Below, piece after piece: positions 20,549-30,165 of a DNA stretch of 32,754 nucleotides. The stretch is from assembly GCA_900317945.1 (NCBI GenBank), contig ONIT01000027.1:1-32754 (forward strand), written 5' to 3'. A program made the translations under genes and the position numbers. Within the stretch, counting starts at the first letter, position 1; the number at the start of each line of letters is the position of its first letter. The stretch is from an uncultured Pseudomonadota bacterium (GTDB lineage: Bacteria > Pseudomonadota > Gammaproteobacteria > Enterobacterales > Succinivibrionaceae). The notes under the pieces were generated by a model. That model saw only the letters and a program-made list of their open reading frames with translations, ran no database searches and had not been told where the DNA came from.

Positions 20549-20776
20549 ATGCCAATCATTAAAGTACGTGAAAACGAGCCGTTCGATGTAGCTCTCCGCC
20601 GCTTCAAGCGTTCCTGCGAGAAGGCTGGCATTCTTGCCGATGTACGCAACCGTGAGTTCTATGAGAAGCCCACCACCATCCGCAAGCGCGCCAAGGCCTC
20701 CGCAGCAAAGCGCCGTGCAAAGAAGCAGGGAAAGGACGGATCACGTTCAAGCGGCATGATGGCAAAGAGCCGTTAA
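20549..20776 (+). CDS. rpsU: Ribosomal protein bS21
   Basis: 75 residues, a few longer than the usual 71. The sequence is strongly basic. It begins [21 protein letters not shown] and has the typical [11 protein letters not shown] segment. It is a component of the 30S subunit near the mRNA exit site that helps initiation. GGGGTGA lies just upstream of the ATG. It is the first gene of the macromolecular-synthesis operon and is followed by a strong terminator that should limit flow into yqeY and dnaG. Confidence 0.97.
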
Positions 20777-20834: not shown

Positions 20835-20873
20835 AGTTCCGGGATCTCAGAGCGAGATCCCGGAACTTTTTTT
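20835..20873 (+). terminator. Terminator/attenuator after rpsU
   Basis: A 14-bp perfect stem (AGTTCCGGGATCTC at 20835-20848 with its complement at 20854-20867) has a 5-nt loop and a T-run to 20873. It corresponds in position to the internal terminator of the E. coli rpsU-dnaG-rpoD operon. Confidence 0.95.
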
Positions 20874-20929: not shown

Positions 20930-21367
20930 ATGTCATTAAGGGAAAAGCTCAATGAGGAACTCAAGGCCTCGATGAAGGCTCGTGACAAGGAACGCACCGG
21001 AGCTCTCCGTCTGCTTCTTTCAGAGGTCAAGAAGGAGGTGGACCACGAGAAGCTGCCCGATGAGAAGATCATCAGCATCGTCTCCCACATGATCAAGGAG
21101 CGCGAGGACTCAATCAAGCAGTACAAGGACGCGGGACGCCCTGAGCTCGCGACCAAGGAGGAGGGAGAGATTAAGGTCATCTCCAAGTTCCTCCCCGCCC
21201 AGCTCTCCGATGACGAGGTCTCCGCCCTTATCGACGAGGCGGTCAGCGCAACCGGGGCCTCGGGCATGAAGGACATGGGCAAGGTCATGGCCTATCTGAA
21301 GCCCAAGGTACAGGGACGCACCGACATGGGAGCGCTCTCCGGAAAGGTCAAGGCAAAGATTGCCTGA
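20930..21367 (+). CDS. yqeY: GatB/YqeY domain protein
   Basis: 145 residues, the normal YqeY length. It begins SLREKLNEELKASMKARDK and has FLPAQLSDDEV and the GMKDMGKVMAYLKPKVQGR C-terminal helix, all typical. It is related to the tRNA-binding tail of GatB, but no biochemical role is firmly established. AAGGAAGG lies seven bases before the ATG. The gene is often found between rpsU and dnaG in Gammaproteobacteria, as here, between two terminators. Confidence 0.95.
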   Translation: MSLREKLNEELKASMKARDKERTGALRLLLSEVKKEVDHEKLPDEKIISIVSHMIKEREDSIKQYKDAGRPELATKEEGEIKVISKFLPAQLSDDEVSALIDEAVSATGASGMKDMGKVMAYLKPKVQGRTDMGALSGKVKAKIA

Positions 21368-21430: not shown

Positions 21431-21458
21431 GCCGGAGCCTCTTGGCGCCGGCTTTTTT
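21431..21458 (+). terminator. Terminator/attenuator just before dnaG
   Basis: GCCGGAGCC (21431-21439) pairs with GGCGCCGGC (21444-21452) with one mismatch and a 4-nt loop, followed by six T (21453-21458). It ends 19 bases before the dnaG ATG and rules out the in-frame TTG at 21442 as start. Confidence 0.8.
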
Positions 21459-21477: not shown

Positions 21478-24400
21478 ATGAGCGGACAGGGCGGAAGGAT
21501 ACCTAAGGAATTCATAGATGATCTGCTTGGGAGGACCGACATCGTCGACGTCCTCCGCGAGAAGGGGCTCCCGCTCAAGAAGTCGAGCGCCGGCGAGTAC
21601 AGCTGCTGCTGCCCCTTCCACCAGGAGCGCTCGCCCTCATTCTACGTGAGCGAGGCAAAGCAGGTCTACTACTGCTTCGGCTGCCAGGCCAAGGGAAACG
21701 TCCTCTCCTTCCTGATGAGGCACGACAGCCTGGGCTATGTCGAGGCTGTGGAGTACCTTGCCGACCGGCTCGGAATCGATGTGCCGCGCGAGCATGGCGC
21801 GCTCCCCGGCCCGCAGGCCCTGCAGGGCGACCGCCCGGTCCTTGAGAGGTGCCGCGACTTCTATGAGACTGAGCTCAGGACGAGCGCTGCCGGGCAGGAG
21901 ATGCTCAGCAGGTACCATGTCTCCCCGGAGACGGCCGCGGCCATGCACCTCGGGTTCGCCCCTTCTGACCGCTTCATCTCGGACAATGAGAACGGGACTT
22001 TTCTCCAGGCAACGATCGACGCGCTAGCCGAGACCGGCATGATGGCCGCTGACAGCACCGGGACACTGGCGCCGGTGTTCAGGGACGCGCTGATGCTCCC
22101 GGTCATTGACCGGAGGGGGAGGCTCTCGGCATTTTCCGCAGTGCTTCCCTCAGGAGAGCAGATCCTCCCTGCCGCCACGCCGGTGTTCAGCCCTGACGAT
22201 GAGCTCTTCGGACTCTCGGACGCGAGGACCATCGAGAGGAACCCGGAGTATTTCTGCCTCTGCCCCTCTCCCCTTGACGTGCTTGAGCTCCGCGCCGCCG
22301 GCTCCGCGAGGGGCATAGCGCCCTTCAAGGGCACCGTAACGCCCTGGCAGATGAAGAGGATCCTCACCTCGGTCGGGCGGCTTGTTGTTGCCGTGCCGGT
22401 AGGCGAGGAGGGCGAGGAGCTCGCGAAGTCCGCCATGCTCTCAGCCATGCCGTTCCTTGATGACGAGAAGAGAATCACCTTCCGGTTCCTTGACGGCGTC
22501 AGCCCAGGCGAGCTCGTGAGGAAGAGCGGGCTCCAGGGGTTCAGGGATCTTGAGAGGCACGATCTCCAGCTCGAGGACTTCTTCTTCCAGATCCTGAAGG
22601 GCGATGCGGACGGAAAGCAGGATCTGGCGCTTAAAACCGGACTCAGCATGCTTGAGAAGCTGAGCCCCAGCACCGCGCTCAGGGGATCGCTCCTCTACCG
22701 GCTCTACGCGGAGTGCCGGGTAGATCCCTGGGAGCTGCGCGGGGCCTGGGGCGCCTCAGATCCCTGGCAGCAGGAGTCCTCCTCGGCAGTGAGGGGATTT
22801 GACGACGGCGCAGCGTTCCATGCGGAAAAGCATGTCATGCGCGGCTCGGAGCTTGCCTCGGCCATCATGCTGCATATGCCGGCCGCCATAAAGAGCCTCC
22901 CGGACTTCGGCACGCTCCGGAGGAGCATCCCGCAGAGCACCCGCCCGGGGCTCCTCGTGCTCCGCGACGTCTTCAGCATGGTTGCCTCGCTCCCATCCCC
23001 GACGCCTGACGCACTTGCCGGATGTTTCGGAAAGACGCCGGAGGAGCCTTTTCTCCGCGTCCTCGCCGGGACAGAGCTTCCGCCTGAGACAACCGAGGCA
23101 GGCGCGGGAGGGGAGGACGCGCTTCCCGGGATATTCCGGAAGGCGGTGGCTGACGCGATTGAGGAGGACCGTGATGATCCTCTGTCCGTGCAGTCCGCCG
23201 CGGCCGAGGCTGACCGGAGCATCCTGCTGCAGGACGTGATAGCCCGCCGCACGCTTGATCCGGACGGCGGAAGCAGCCCTTCCCTGTGCTGCCCGTTCCA
23301 CCTGGGAACCGACCGGACGCTGAGGGCAGACAAAGACTCGCAGCTTTTCCGCTGCAGCGTCTGCGGCGCAGAGGGTGACGCAGTCGACTTTGTGCGGGAA
23401 TTTGACGCCAGATCCGGCACCGGCGAGGCAGCGGATCTCATTCTCCGCGAGACCGGCCACCAGATCCCGGAGAGAGGGCTGCTCCCCGGGGAGAGGATGC
23501 TCGAAAGGGCCGCCGCCTGGTACCACAGGAACCTCGCCTCGTCCGAAGAGGCGCAGGAGTACCTGAGGAACCGCGGCATAACGCCTGAGACCATTGAGCG
23601 CTACTCCTTCGGCTATGCCCCGGACGAGTGGCATGCCCTGGCGGACGCACTGAGCCCGGGAATCAGCGGGATCAGGATCCTTCTCGAGAACGGGCTCCTT
23701 ATCGAGAACGACAGCCATACCGGGCAGTACGACCGCTTCCGCAACAGGATAATGATCCCGATCCGCGGCAAGACCGGCAGGATAATCGCCTTCGGCGGAC
23801 GCGTGCTCGATGACAGCAAGCCCAAGTACCTCAACTCGCCCGAGTCGCCCCTCTTCTCGAAAAGCCGCGAGCTCTTCGGCCTCTATGACGCTCTGCGGAA
23901 GGAAAGCCGCCCGGAGTTCATCCTCATCGTCGAGGGCTACATGGATGTCATCGCCCTCGCCCAGTACGGCGTGACGAACGCAGTTGCCTCCCTCGGGACA
24001 GCGACGACCCCCGAGCAGCTCAGGCTGATATTCGGGGCAACGGACCATCTGGTCTGCTGCTACGACGGAGACGCCCCCGGCAGGAAGGCCGCCTGGCACA
24101 CGCTCATGACCGCCCTCCCCATCCTGAACGGCAGCCGGAGGATCTCCTTCCTCTTCCTGCCTCCGGAGGACGATCCTGACTCATTCGTCAGGGCCCACGG
24201 AAAGGAGGGGTTCCTCGGCTATCTCAGGGAGCATGAGATGGGGCTCACTGACTTCATCTTCGACCATGAGAGGCGGGGGCTCGGGAACGCCAGGGAGGAT
24301 CAGATCACCCTGCTCTCGAGGGTCATCGACTGCGCCGTGAGGATGCAGCAGGACTCCCCGTGGGCAAGGGAGATCAGGGAGACCTTCCGCCCCGGCGGGA

Positions 24401-24978
24401 GGTTCCCGGGCTTCGAGGAGAGCTACATCAATGCCCTCTACGACAAGAGGCTCAGGGAGTCTAAGGCGCCTGAGCCTCCTCCGGAGCCTGATGAGTCAGA
24501 GGTCCCCCTCTCCTGTATCAACCGGCTCATTGCCACTGCCCTCGCCTGCCCCGGAGGCATCTGCGAGATACCGGACCTGCCGAGCACCATGCAGGTATTC
24601 GCCAGGATGATCCGCAACCCAGCGGCCATGCTCCTTCTCGATGTAATAAGGGTCGCGCAGAGGAACGGAGGCAGGGACTCCGCCGCCTCGCTCCTCCGGG
24701 AGTTTGAGGGAAGCCCCTGCATCCTCTGGCTCCGCCGGCTGGCGAGGAGGCAGGACATCGACCGGGAGGCGGCAATCGACCGGAAGCAGGCGAAGGATGA
24801 GTTCAATAAGGATCTCAATGACATCCTGAGGCAGGAGCTCGGGCAGCTGATCGACGAGCTCAGGCGGAAGATCGCTGCCGGGACCGGGTCAGACGGGGAT
24901 CTCCGGGAGCTGCAGGACTACGTGAGGATGCGCAACAGGATAGACGATGGCTCCGTCAGCGGAAGCGGGAGGCAGTAG
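21478..24978 (+). CDS. dnaG: Double-length DNA primase: inactive primase fused to active primase
   Basis: 1166 residues in one frame; ordinary DnaG is about 580-600. Unit 1 (about residues 1-590) has a CHC2 zinc domain with Cys45, His48, Cys66 and Cys69. A polymerase-like region follows whose TOPRIM signatures are lost: PSPLDV in place of EGYMDV near 263-268, PVGEEG in place of DGDAPG, and SPGELVR in place of DPDSFVR. A helicase-binding-like helical part ends the unit. Unit 2 (about 591-1166) has a second zinc domain (Cys605, His608, Cys626, Cys629) and a canonical TOPRIM core (Glu819 in EGYMD, Asp863/Asp865 in DGD, Asp899/Asp901 in DPD). A C-terminal DnaB-binding domain ends the protein. It makes RNA primers at the replication fork. 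AGGGA precedes the ATG. Unit 2 alone should be able to catalyse synthesis; the role of unit 1 is unknown. Confidence 0.93.
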   Translation: MSGQGGRIPKEFIDDLLGRTDIVDVLREKGLPLKKSSAGEYSCCCPFHQERSPSFYVSEAKQVYYCFGCQAKGNVLSFLMRHDSLGYVEAVEYLADRLGIDVPREHGALPGPQALQGDRPVLERCRDFYETELRTSAAGQEMLSRYHVSPETAAAMHLGFAPSDRFISDNENGTFLQATIDALAETGMMAADSTGTLAPVFRDALMLPVIDRRGRLSAFSAVLPSGEQILPAATPVFSPDDELFGLSDARTIERNPEYFCLCPSPLDVLELRAAGSARGIAPFKGTVTPWQMKRILTSVGRLVVAVPVGEEGEELAKSAMLSAMPFLDDEKRITFRFLDGVSPGELVRKSGLQGFRDLERHDLQLEDFFFQILKGDADGKQDLALKTGLSMLEKLSPSTALRGSLLYRLYAECRVDPWELRGAWGASDPWQQESSSAVRGFDDGAAFHAEKHVMRGSELASAIMLHMPAAIKSLPDFGTLRRSIPQSTRPGLLVLRDVFSMVASLPSPTPDALAGCFGKTPEEPFLRVLAGTELPPETTEAGAGGEDALPGIFRKAVADAIEEDRDDPLSVQSAAAEADRSILLQDVIARRTLDPDGGSSPSLCCPFHLGTDRTLRADKDSQLFRCSVCGAEGDAVDFVREFDARSGTGEAADLILRETGHQIPERGLLPGERMLERAAAWYHRNLASSEEAQEYLRNRGITPETIERYSFGYAPDEWHALADALSPGISGIRILLENGLLIENDSHTGQYDRFRNRIMIPIRGKTGRIIAFGGRVLDDSKPKYLNSPESPLFSKSRELFGLYDALRKESRPEFILIVEGYMDVIALAQYGVTNAVASLGTATTPEQLRLIFGATDHLVCCYDGDAPGRKAAWHTLMTALPILNGSRRISFLFLPPEDDPDSFVRAHGKEGFLGYLREHEMGLTDFIFDHERRGLGNAREDQITLLSRVIDCAVRMQQDSPWAREIRETFRPGGRFPGFEESYINALYDKRLRESKAPEPPPEPDESEVPLSCINRLIATALACPGGICEIPDLPSTMQVFARMIRNPAAMLLLDVIRVAQRNGGRDSAASLLREFEGSPCILWLRRLARRQDIDREAAIDRKQAKDEFNKDLNDILRQELGQLIDELRRKIAAGTGSDGDLRELQDYVRMRNRIDDGSVSGSGRQ

Positions 24979-25148: not shown

Positions 25149-25373
25149 TTCAATTTTTTGCCCGGACTGTTTCTTTCCATGTTCCCAACAAGCCGAGGAA
25201 CGCGGAGAGGCCTTCTTTTTCCCAAAAGGAGGCACGGTCCGGGCTCTGGCGGTCCGGGATCCCCTGAATAAAGAAAATGCGATGAAGCTTTTCATATATG
25301 CCATATGAGGCAGAGAAAAGATCCATTCGCCGCCAAGCTGAATCGGTCAAACTGTAAGAGAGTGCCCAATCAC
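25149..25373 (+). promoter_or_regulatory. Structured ~225-nt leader of the first rpoD copy, with a short uORF
   Basis: From the predicted transcription start to the ATG at 25374. GCCCGGACTG (25160-25169) can pair with CGGTCCGGGC (25235-25244) with one G-U. This encloses a second stem, GCCTTCTTTT (25210-25219) with AAAAGGAGGC (25224-25233). A tiny reading frame at 25282-25308 would encode MKLFIYAI. The leader of the second rpoD copy has matching stems built from different bases and an 8-codon frame at the same place, so structure seems to be kept. The function is unknown; it is a candidate translational or temperature control element. Confidence 0.5.
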
Positions 25374-27056
25374 ATGCAGAATGAAGAAAACAGCAGCCAG
25401 CAGGGGAGCCAGACGTCTGTAACCCTCCTTGCCAACAAAGGACGCGAGCAGGGATTCCTTACCTTCAACCAGATAGCCGACGCGCTTCCGAGCTCCATCG
25501 ACCCAGAGCAGCTCAAGGACATCGTGCAGCTGATGGAGAGCATCGGCATCAAGGTCTGCGAGGACTCCGAGGTTGAGGACGAGCAGCTCCTCTATGACAC
25601 CGAGGCTGTCGCCAGCTCCAACACCACCGACGAGATCCAGCAGGTCGTCCCGGAGAACGGCCATACGACCGATCCGGTCAGGATGTACATGCGCGAGATG
25701 GGGACAGTGCCCCTCCTGAACCGCAGCGAGGAGATCGACATCGCAAAGCGCATCGAGGAAGGCACCCACATGGTACAGCGGGCTGTCGCCGGCTATCCCC
25801 AGGCAATCTCCAACCTCCTCCGCCTCTACGGCGAGTGCCAGAGAGGCAGCCTGCGCCTTGGCGAGCTGGTCTCCGGATTCACCGACGAGAACGGCGAGAA
25901 GCTGGTCCTCACCGATGAGGAGCGCGAGAAGAACGCAGCCCTGCTCGAGAGCATGGCAGCCGCCTGCGCCGAGGAAAAGGCGGGTGACGGCGCATCTGAC
26001 GATGACCAGGATGACGAGGACTTTGAGGATGATGACGAAAGCCAGGACGGAAGCCCGGCAAAGCCGTCAGCCGCAAAGGAGAAGCCCGCTAAAAAGCAGC
26101 CCGCTGGCGAAGTTCAGTCGGATGACTCCTCTGATGATGACTCTGATGAGGTTCCCGATGACGATGATGAGAACGGGCCGGATCCCGAGCTGGCCTTCGT
26201 AATGTTCTCGAAGCTCCGCGACCTCTCCGACGACGCTGCTGGCGCCATACAGAAGTACGGCCGCGGCAAGCAGGCAACCGAGCAGAAGATCAAGAAGCTC
26301 GGCGACCTCTTCTGCCAGTTCAGGCTGGTTCCGAGGCAGTTCGAGCTCCTTGTCCGCAGCATCCGCGACATCGTGAAGAGGATCCGCGATCAGGAGATCC
26401 TGATGCGCGACTGCTGCGTGCGCACCTGCCACATGCCGAAGGAGGAGTTCAACCGCTGCTACCGCCTCAATGCCGCAAACCAGACCAGCGGCGGCAGCGA
26501 CGGGCGCTCTGACTGGATCGAGGCGGCAATCGAGAGCGGGAAGCCCTATGCGGCAGAGCTCAGGAAGAACCGCCGCGAGCTCGAGAGGGCCATGGACAGG
26601 CTGCGTGACATCGAGAACGAGATCGGCATCTCCATCTACGACATCAAGAACATCGCGGTCAACATGAACCGCGGCGAGAACCTCGCGCAGCGCGCCAAGG
26701 AGAAGATGACGAAGGCGAACCTCCGCCTCGTCATATCCATCGCGAAGAAGTACACGAACCGCGGACTCCAGTTCCTGGACCTCATACAGGAAGGGAACAT
26801 CGGCCTCATGAAGGCGGTCGACAAGTTCGAGTACCGCCGCGGCTACAAGTTCTCGACCTACGCCACCTGGTGGATAAGGCAGGCCATCACCAGATCCATT
26901 GCTCAACCGCGTCTCCAGGCAGATGCTGCAGGAGAAGGGCCGCGATCCTACTCCCGAGGAGCTCGCGCAGCAGATGAGCATGCCCGAGGAGAAGATCAGG
27001 AAGGTCCTCAAGATCGCGAAGGAGCCTATCTCCATGGAGACCCCGATAGGCGATGA
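25374..27056 (+). CDS. rpoD: RNA polymerase sigma70 factor RpoD, copy 1, N-terminal part (frame broken)
   Basis: The start at 25374 ([10 protein letters not shown]) matches the usual distance to the GKEQG-like segment of RpoD. Upstream in-frame codons to 25305 differ from copy 2 mostly by amino-acid-changing substitutions, unlike the coding part, so I read them as leader. Order of elements: region 1.1 (about residues 14-64, [16 protein letters not shown]), region 1.2 ([18 protein letters not shown]), an acidic Lys/Asp-rich non-conserved region, then regions 2.1-2.4 ([35 protein letters not shown]). At 26901 the reading frame is lost; the residues after that to 27056 are spurious. Sequence equivalent to DQAR...INK (about 56 nt by comparison with E. 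coli) is absent. The frame resumes in the next entry. Confidence 0.85.
26820..26902 (+). repeat. 83-nt block identical to 29622-29704 in the second rpoD copy
   Basis: The two rpoD copies are identical over these 83 bases (coding for regions 2.3-2.4), ending at the point where copy 1 loses its frame. Beyond both breaks the copies again match closely (CCAGGCAGATGCTGCAGGAG). A block of this kind is prone to collapse or mis-joining in short-read assembly. Confidence 0.9.
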
Positions 27057-27357
27057 CGAGGACTCGCATATCGGAGACTTCCTCGAGGACAGCAACATCG
27101 CGCAGCCCGATGAGGCCGCGACAGCCGACAGCATGAAGGAGACCATCAACGCCTCGCTTGCCTCGCTCACACCGAGGGAGGCCAAGGTGCTGAGGATGCG
27201 CTTCGGCATAGGCACGAACAAGGATCACACCCTCGAGGAGGTCGGCAAGGAGCTCGGCGTTACCCGCGAGAGGATCCGCCAGATCGAGGCGAAGGCCCTC
27301 CGGAAGCTCCGCCATCCCGGACGCGCCGGCCGGCTCAGACCGTTCGTAGACGACTGA
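26899..27357 (+). CDS. rpoD: RNA polymerase sigma70 factor RpoD, copy 1, C-terminal part
   Basis: This continues copy 1 after the break; the TTG at 26899 is only the first possible start and is not a natural one. It contains the rest of region 3 ([41 protein letters not shown]) and all of region 4 ([13 protein letters not shown], then the -35-binding helix [11 protein letters not shown]). The activator-contact stretch [10 protein letters not shown] is as in E. coli sigma70. The end reads RPFVDD, similar to E. coli. Inserting about 56 missing bases near 26901 would rejoin the two frames. Confidence 0.87.
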
Positions 27358-27764: not shown

Positions 27765-27989
27765 TTCCATTTTTACCCGAACTGTTTTTATCCGTGTTCC
27801 CAAAAACCGAAGGAGCGCGGATGCGCCTTTCTTTTCAGGAAGGCGCACTGTTTCGGGGTGGCGGTCCGGGATCCCCTGAATAAGAAAACGCGATGATGCT
27901 TTTCACATATGCCATGTAAGGCAGCAAGAAAAGATCCAATCGCCGCCATGCTGATGAATCGGTCAAACTGTAACAGAGTGACAAGTCAC
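27765..27989 (+). promoter_or_regulatory. Structured ~225-nt leader of the second rpoD copy, with a short uORF
   Basis: It is the same length as the copy 1 leader. CCCGAA (27776-27781) can pair with TTCGGG (27852-27857). This encloses a stem GCGCCTTTC (27823-27831) with GGAAGGCGC (27838-27846). These bases differ from those of copy 1, yet the stems remain. A short frame at 27893-27919 would encode MMLFTYAM, again eight codons; its stop is TAA where copy 1 has TGA. The function is not known. Confidence 0.5.
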
Positions 27990-29762
27990 ATGCAGAATGA
28001 AGAAAACAGCAGTCAGCAGGGAAGAGAGTTGCCGATAGCCATTCTGGCAGGCAGGGCGCGGGAGCAGGGGTACCTCACTATCAGCCAGATTGCCGGAGCG
28101 CTTCCGGAAGGCACAGATCCCGCAAAGCTGAGCCAGATCGTCGGGCAGATCAGGAGCCAGGGCATCAGCGTCCGCGAGGACTCCGAGACAGAGGCAGAAA
28201 AATCCGACGAGGACGGCTACGCTCAGCAGGGAGAGCAGACCCCGATTGCCATTCTTGCCCAGAAAGGCCGCGAGCAGGGCTTCCTTACCTTCAACCAGAT
28301 TGCTGACGAGCTGCCGAGCTCCATCGACCCTGAGCAGCTCAATGACATCGTGCAGCTCCTTGAGAGCATCGGCATCAAGGTCTGCGAGGACTCCGAGGTT
28401 GAGGACGAGCAGCTCCTCTATGACACCGAGGCGGTCGCCAGCTCCAACACCACCGACGAGATCCAGCAGGTCGTCCCGGAGAGCGGGCATACGACCGATC
28501 CCGTCAGGATGTACATGCGCGAGATGGGGACAGTGCCCCTCCTGAACCGCAGCGAGGAGATCGACATTGCGAAGCACATCGAGGAAGGCACCCACATGGT
28601 CCAGCGGGCCGTCGCCGGCTATCCCCAGGCAATCTCGAACCTCCTCCGCCTTTACGGCGAGTGCCAGAAAGGCAGCCTGCGCCTTGGCGAGCTGGTCTCA
28701 GGGTTTACCGACGAGAAAGGCGAGAAGCTGGTCCTCACCGATGAGGAGCGTGAGAAGAACGCCGCCCTGCTCGAGACCATGGCAGCAGCCTGCGCCGCGG
28801 AGAGCCCAGAAGGCGATGACGCGGATGACGATGACGAGGATGATGAGGAGAGCGGCGACGAGAAGGCCGCAGGAGAGCAGAAGAAGGCCTCGTCAGGAAA
28901 GAAGCGCGCCGCGGCTGATCCGGATGATGATGACGTGTCCGACGACGCGCCGGAGGACGGCGATGACGAGGAGAGCGGTCCGGATCCTGAGCTTGCCTTC
29001 ATCATGTTCTCGAAGCTCAGGAAGCTCTCCGACGACACCGTGAGCGCCATACAGAAGTACGGCCGCGGCAAGCAGGCGACCGACCAGAAAATCAAAAAGC
29101 TCGGGGACCTCTTCTGCCAGTTCAGGCTGGTTCCGAGGCAGTTCGAGCTCCTGGTCCGCAGCATCGGCGACATCGTGAAGAGAATACGCGATCAGGAGCT
29201 CCTGCTCCGCGACTGCTGCGTGCGCTCCTGCCACATGCCGAAGGAGAAGTTCAACCGCTGCTACCGCCTCAACGCCGTAAGCCAGACCAGCGGCGGCAGC
29301 GACGGCCGCTCTGACTGGATCGAGGCGGCAATTGAAAGCGGGAAGCCCTACGCGGCAGGGCTCAGGAAGAACCGCCGCGAGCTCGAGAGGGCCATGGACA
29401 GGCTGCGCGACATCGAGAACGAGACCGGCACCTCCATCTATGACATCAAGAACATCGCGATGAGCATGAACCGCGGCGAGAACCTCGCGCAGAGGGCGAA
29501 AAAGCAGATGATCGAGGCAAACCTCCGCCTCGTCATCTCCATAGCGAAGAAGTACACGAACCGCGGCCTCCAGTTCCTGGACCTCATCCAGGAGGGGAAC
29601 ATCGGCCTCATGAAGGCAGTTGACAAGTTCGAGTACCGCCGCGGCTACAAGTTCTCGACCTACGCCACCTGGTGGATAAGGCAGGCCATCACCAGATCCA
29701 TTGCAGATCAGGCGCGTACCCAGGCAGATGCTGCAGGAGAAGGGCCGAGATCCTACCCCTGA
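27990..29762 (+). CDS. rpoD: RNA polymerase sigma70 factor RpoD, copy 2 with doubled region 1.1, N-terminal part (frame broken)
   Basis: The start at 27990 ([10 protein letters not shown]) corresponds to that of copy 1. Unlike copy 1 it has two region 1.1 domains 70 residues apart: about residues 14-64 ([16 protein letters not shown]) and 84-134 ([16 protein letters not shown]). The second is nearly identical to the single one of copy 1. Region 1.2, an acidic spacer of different sequence, and regions 2.1-2.4 follow, all close to copy 1. The frame fails near 29719: after SIADQART about 53 nt of conserved coding sequence are missing and the last residues to 29762 are spurious. The true continuation is in the next entry. 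Confidence 0.85.
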
Positions 29763-30165
29763 GGAGCTCGCGGTTAGGATGGGCATGCCCGAGGAGAAAA
29801 TCAGGAAGGTCCTCAGGATCGCCAGGGATCCAATCTCGATGGATACACCGGTCGGAGATGACGAGGACTCTCATATCGGAGACTTCATCGAGGACCGCAG
29901 CATCGCCCAGCCCGATGAGGCGGCAACCGCCTACAGCCTGAAGGAAAACATCACGAGGGCTCTGGAATCGCTCGCGCCCAGGGAGGCAATGGTGATCAGG
30001 TACCGCTTCGGCATAGGGGTAGGCAGGGATCACACGCTTGAGGACGTCGGGAAGCTCCTCGGCGTTACCCGCGAGAGGATCCGCCAGATTGAGGCGAAGG
30101 CCCTGAGGTGGTTCCGCCATCCGAGCCGCGCCGAGGCGCTCCGGAGCCTTGCGGATGACGATTAG
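29701..30165 (+). CDS. rpoD: RNA polymerase sigma70 factor RpoD, copy 2, C-terminal part
   Basis: This continues copy 2 after the break; the TTG at 29701 is not a natural start. It contains region 3 ([31 protein letters not shown]) and region 4. The -35-contact helix [11 protein letters not shown] is unchanged, but the segment after it reads [10 protein letters not shown] where copy 1 and E. coli have ALRKLRHP. Trp thus replaces the Lys used for activator contacts in sigma70, and region 4.1 ([28 protein letters not shown]) has diverged more than in copy 1. This suggests the same core promoter recognition with altered activator interaction; that last step is inference. Confidence 0.85.

Follow-up and report, generated by a model that had tools for sequence, protein, structure and literature searches.

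The sole dnaG-type gene of an uncultured, gut-type bacterium of the Succinivibrionaceae codes, in one frame, for two DnaG modules which appear, from their residues, to have degenerated in a complementary manner. A good zinc-binding domain (ZBD) is found in the first half of the protein, a good polymerase in the second. The preferred reading, to which we assign a probability of about 0.72, is that the only replicative primase of this organism derives from the fusion of a tandem dnaG duplication, the functions of which were then split between the halves. The fused pseudo-primase/primase is a new DnaG variant. No double DnaG was found in the literature searched (open-access papers), as the initial annotation had supposed, and no maintained bacterial pseudo-primase domain was found described in the open-access papers searched.

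The fusion gene, delineated by ORF, Pfam and NCBIfam searches, resides at 21478..24978 on the + strand, as all features below, of the window, i.e. the whole 32,754 nt stretch of contig ONIT01000027.1 analyzed. The uninterrupted 1166-codon frame with two DnaG units, reported in the initial annotation, is confirmed; it opens with the ATG at 21478, its stop codon ends at 24978, and its product has a computed mass of 128.8 kDa (~129 kDa). Between the flanking stops the frame spans 1254 codons, and a TTG at 21442 is therefore a possible alternative start; the context of ATG 21478 is favoured by the sister genome UBA2810. The locus has the usual rpsU–yqeY–dnaG–rpoD order, corresponding to a normal macromolecular-synthesis operon context. 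An rpsU-like gene (20549..20776), a terminator-like hairpin at 20835 and a yqeY-like gene (20930..21367) precede dnaG, the latter immediately, both genes having been identified by inspecting their translations. The first rpoD copy (25305..27357), the frame of which is broken in the current assembly, lies downstream. Profile searches of the 2.89-Mb assembly identified no second, normal dnaG elsewhere. DnaB is encoded by one ordinary gene in the same genome (N-terminal domain, 98.7 bits), so no change of the partner is visible, and an altered or duplicated DnaB was ruled out.

The region 3' of dnaG hosts two rpoD copies in tandem (25305-27357 and 27909-30165), which are 82% identical at the amino acid level over most of their length. 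Both are broken at one common place, inside a stretch which is identical between the two intact copies of UBA2810; the breaks therefore look like a shared repeat dropped by the assembler. Tandem rpoD genes are common to the fusion genome and UBA2810, and two rpoD genes were found also in another genome (G009). The second copy features two region-1.1 domains in tandem (28044-28457). Another rpoD-like gene, the frame of which is intact, resides elsewhere in the fusion genome (C22, L144).

Pfam identifies two zinc ribbons (CHC2), two DNAG_N domains, one Toprim domain, restricted to the second half, and one weak DnaB-binding domain in the fusion protein, and the NCBIfam dnaG model TIGR01391 matches it twice. 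The DNAG_N scores (137.6 and 37.3 bits, the curated cut-off being 26) exclude a chance match. As in bacterial DnaG (TIGR01391), zinc ribbon, DNAG_N, Toprim and a C-terminal DnaB-binding-type domain follow in the usual order, the gene sits in a rpsU-dnaG-rpoD locus, and the catalytic residues are intact, here in the second half. Unlike bacterial DnaG, which is a single module of ~600 residues, the fusion has two modules per chain and double length (1166 aa), a first core that is apparently dead, and a truncated, diverged second ZBD.

The first module starts with ZBD1 (aa 4-108; 21487..21801), a canonical CHC2 zinc ribbon (PF01807, 116.5 bits). RNAP1 (aa 118-375; 21829..22602) includes DNAG_N and Toprim regions, and HBD1 (aa 456-560; 22843..23157) is a diverged, shortened bundle of the helicase-binding type. 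The junction (aa 550-600; 23125..23277), which has a dN/dS of 0.29, leads into ZBD2 (aa 586-662; 23233..23463), which keeps the zinc ligands and has lost the N-terminal helix and the ExxPSFxV motif. RNAP2 (aa 670-932; 23485..24273) features DNAG_N and a Toprim with the acidic metal-binding set (EGYMD at 819, CYDGD at 861-865, DDPD at 898), as expected for a catalytically intact core. HBD2 (aa 1013-1166; 24514..24975) is diverged yet has a full-length DnaB-binding domain fold, its PF08278 score (26.4 bits) being just below the curated 29.1. The claim that both sets of primase domains are complete therefore does not hold, since the first Toprim is seemingly dead, HBD1 shortened and ZBD2 truncated.

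Both halves were placed in an alignment with 45 single DnaGs, the majority of them from the same family and order, and 72 columns at least 95% identical among single DnaGs, spread over ZBD, N-lobe and Toprim, were taken as invariant sites. ZBD1 keeps 19 of 21 such sites, ZBD2 9/21. The trend is reversed in the polymerase core, where RNAP1 keeps 21 of 51 sites (N-lobe 10/23, Toprim1 11/28) and RNAP2 50 of 51 (N-lobe 23/23, Toprim2 27/28). When the domains were scored with family HMMs, ZBD1, RNAP-N2 and Toprim2 turned out to be within the range of held-out single DnaGs, and ZBD2, RNAP-N1 and Toprim1 far below it. Scores were 134 and 33 bits for ZBD1 and ZBD2 (range 129-163), 54 and 158 bits for the first and second RNAP-N (140-195), 32 and 159 bits for Toprim1 and Toprim2 (153-190). 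HBD1 (~11 bits; 10.6) and HBD2 (24 bits) are both below the range of 49-115. RNAP2 is 39-41% identical to the Escherichia coli and Pseudomonas cores.

Changes in RNAP1 affect the active-site motifs. EGYMD is changed to CPSPLD, CYDGD to AVPVG, DPD to SPG, and the D of LD alone is kept. Five out of six acidic active-site residues, presumably corresponding to E265, D309, D311, D345 and D347 in E. coli numbering, are gone, and all are present in the second half. Three conserved basic (R/K) positions, which we take to be E. coli R146, K229 and K241, are replaced by Y, a gap and P, respectively; the second half keeps all three. An arginine is conserved where the HBD begins, and we believe that it contacts the SSB tail; this position is E in the first half and N in the second. 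Judging from these substitutions, the Toprim/polymerase core of the first half is catalytically dead, and one active centre is left per polypeptide. The gene would hence not hard-wire a pair of working primases, contrary to what was first proposed.

The first half was modelled with AlphaFold2 from 28 aligned sequences (mean pLDDT 79). Residues 115-423 of the model align with the P. aeruginosa DnaG core 5vaz over 305 residues (Z 32.2, rmsd 2.3); the structural matches of ZBD1 and HBD1 are 1d0q (Z 14.9) and 4im9 (Z 11.7), respectively. RNAP1 is thus predicted to retain the DnaG core fold, in a model the alignment of which includes single DnaGs, and favours this fold. Z-scores in the model of the full-length protein (mean pLDDT 73) are 35.7 for RNAP2 against the E. 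coli core and 13.9 for HBD2 against the DnaG C-terminal domain (6cbt). The pTM of this model is 0.45, the placement of domains is not reliable, and docking of ZBD1 on RNAP2 is unreadable.

The same fusion is carried by UBA2810, the one other genome of the genus examined. The two proteins are 82% identical, 1166/1166 codons can be aligned with no gap, and dN/dS is 0.18 over the whole gene. The view that the halves are old, strongly diverged and not produced by misassembly is upheld. The same contig has an assembly deletion in two near-identical rpoD copies, and one may suspect that two dnaG genes were joined by an assembly or binning artefact. However, UBA2810 is an independent species, the halves have diverged too far for shared k-mers and for mis-joining, and no further dnaG is found in the genome; an artefact is already largely refuted, and its residual probability is negligible.

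Selection is uneven along the protein. Comparison of the two species gives dN/dS values of 0.125 for ZBD1, 0.172 for ZBD2 and 0.243 for HBD2. RNAP1 (0.244; 0.172-0.343) and RNAP2 (0.081; 0.045-0.126) have non-overlapping intervals. RNAP1 is therefore less constrained than RNAP2, but is not drifting, being under purifying selection. Since the fold is seemingly kept and dN/dS is 0.24, RNAP1 may be viewed as a maintained pseudo-primase, and possibly as the first example of such a domain in bacteria. The retained fold, the purifying selection and the conservation of the substituted motifs between species would suit also a RNAP1 which is not dead, but neofunctionalised for alternative chemistry or nucleotide binding. 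This is very improbable, as five of the six acidic metal positions and three basic NTP/template positions have been lost jointly, and no obvious new conserved acidic cluster is found in RNAP1.

The halves might be separate in the cell, due to an internal start or to proteolysis, and form a heteromeric primase made by a pseudo-primase and a catalytic subunit. Stretches near the junction are flexible and of low confidence in the model, and a GTG at codon 587 is present in both species. Yet the junction has equal length in the two species, a start at 587 would fall inside ZBD2, and no conserved Shine-Dalgarno-like site is found in the junction (aa 550-600) of the two species ahead of an in-frame start for a second protein. 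An internal start giving a separate second half was rejected on this ground, and separate halves are altogether improbable.

The fusion is known from two genomes, both MAGs. No frame with two DNAG_N domains was found either in 55 other Succinivibrionaceae genomes, belonging to 13 genera, or in 139 others from across the phylum; no double-dnaG fusion was found among the matches listed for a less strict, order-wide sample of 394 other genomes. The search in relatives thus recovered the fusion in UBA2810, but not in the rest of the family sampled. On the evidence of two genomes, the fusion is a genus-level trait.

ZBD1 groups with DnaGs of a sister genus (g5; SH-aLRT 97), and RNAP2 is placed inside the Succinivibrionaceae (SH-aLRT 97). 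These placements fit vertical descent of both. A foreign origin of either half is unsupported, as ZBD1 and RNAP2 both group with DnaGs of the family. Branches are long in the whole-module tree, and a constraint making the halves sisters (p-AU 0.35) is neither rejected nor demonstrated. The simplest reading of these data is that a native dnaG was duplicated in tandem, was fused in frame, and underwent complementary decay, as the sequences suggest. An unfused tandem dnaG was found in Candidatus Anaerobiospirillum pullistercoris, which belongs to another genus of the family, and the duplication step has therefore occurred at least once more. Adjacent duplication within the same family is shared with the fusion. 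In contrast, the Candidatus Anaerobiospirillum pullistercoris genes are two separate frames, the first of 464 aa (no HBD) and the second of 2062 codons, which includes a low-complexity insert, and catalytic motifs are found in both.

Unusual dnaG frames occur also in other members of the order. Three long DnaG frames were read in an Anaerobiospirillum-like genus (g2; L080, L082, L083), and feature long, low-complexity Q/N/G-rich inserts between polymerase and HBD. A DnaG frame of 1387 codons in another family (L081) has a middle part that is long and Q/G/S/T-rich, and is much extended at the C-terminus. The dnaG of Succinivibrionaceae bacterium WG-1 is spread over two overlapping frames, probably by a sequencing frameshift.

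In the mechanism that we propose, an old tandem dnaG duplication would have been fused in frame and then subfunctionalised. The first half would have kept the template-reading zinc domain, its polymerase dying while the fold was preserved; the second half would have kept the polymerase centre, its zinc domain losing the conserved DNA-contact motif along with the N-terminal helix. HBD2, perhaps aided by the degenerate HBD1, would dock on DnaB. ZBD1 would read the start site and hold the 5' end of the primer, and RNAP2 would make the RNA. Because ZBD1 and RNAP2 are the two well-kept parts of the protein, we infer that they work together, ZBD1 serving RNAP2 across ~560 residues of scaffold. The RNAP1-HBD1-ZBD2 region would act as an internal scaffold replacing a second primase molecule. 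ZBD2 may still assist RNAP2, as it keeps four zinc ligands and has a dN/dS of 0.17.

The main rival to the cooperation of ZBD1 and RNAP2 is that ZBD2 serves RNAP2 in cis. The second half would then be an ordinary, self-sufficient DnaG, and the first a degenerate appendage for regulation or scaffolding, e.g. an extra DNA- or DnaB-binding arm. The second half holds all DnaG domains in order, and ZBD2, besides keeping all zinc ligands, is under purifying selection of its own. Against this, ZBD2 lacks the N-terminal helix and most invariant sites (9/21 kept), and ZBD1, on which constraint is no weaker than on ZBD2, has the look of an ordinary primase ZBD. Service in cis is a rather unlikely explanation, albeit the first to be considered after cooperation of ZBD1 and RNAP2.

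PMC12418098, citing Corn 2005, describes the zinc domain of one DnaG molecule as acting in trans, on the polymerase domain of another. Such crosstalk resembles that proposed here, in that the ZBD of one unit would work with the polymerase of another, but takes place between separate, identical and complete molecules; in the fusion, the two halves of a single chain would have specialised as partners. The idea of a trans-acting zinc domain in the initial annotation is sharpened by the finding of the well-conserved ZBD and polymerase in different halves, but its premise of two complete domain sets is not supported. In T4 primase, template reading and retention of the primer 5' end fall to the ZBD, and extension of the primer to the RPD (PMC10359460). 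T4 gp61 and T7 gp4 (PMC10359460), like the fusion, have ZBD and RPD as separate lobes. In T4 the linker is a loop of 18 residues (PMC10359460), whereas the ~560 residues between ZBD1 and RNAP2 are mostly folded domains.

The T4 linker has been considered a measure of primer length, but the effect of its length is subtle (PMC10359460), and a change in primer length is therefore not to be assumed. Altered stoichiometry or primer length might still result from the fusion. We see about even odds that the protein is an obligate intramolecular pseudo-dimer, in which the pseudo-primase half would serve template recognition and the other half catalysis. Optional trans crosstalk would thereby be fixed in one gene, and DnaB stoichiometry, primer length and contact with SSB would have changed to match.

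It is a standing question whether DnaG zinc domains act in cis or in trans, as is the number of primases needed per DnaB ring. In these bacteria evolution appears to have divided the two tasks among fused copies of their only primase, which is presumably essential, and the fusion offers a natural test of the roles of zinc domain and polymerase, set in separate halves.
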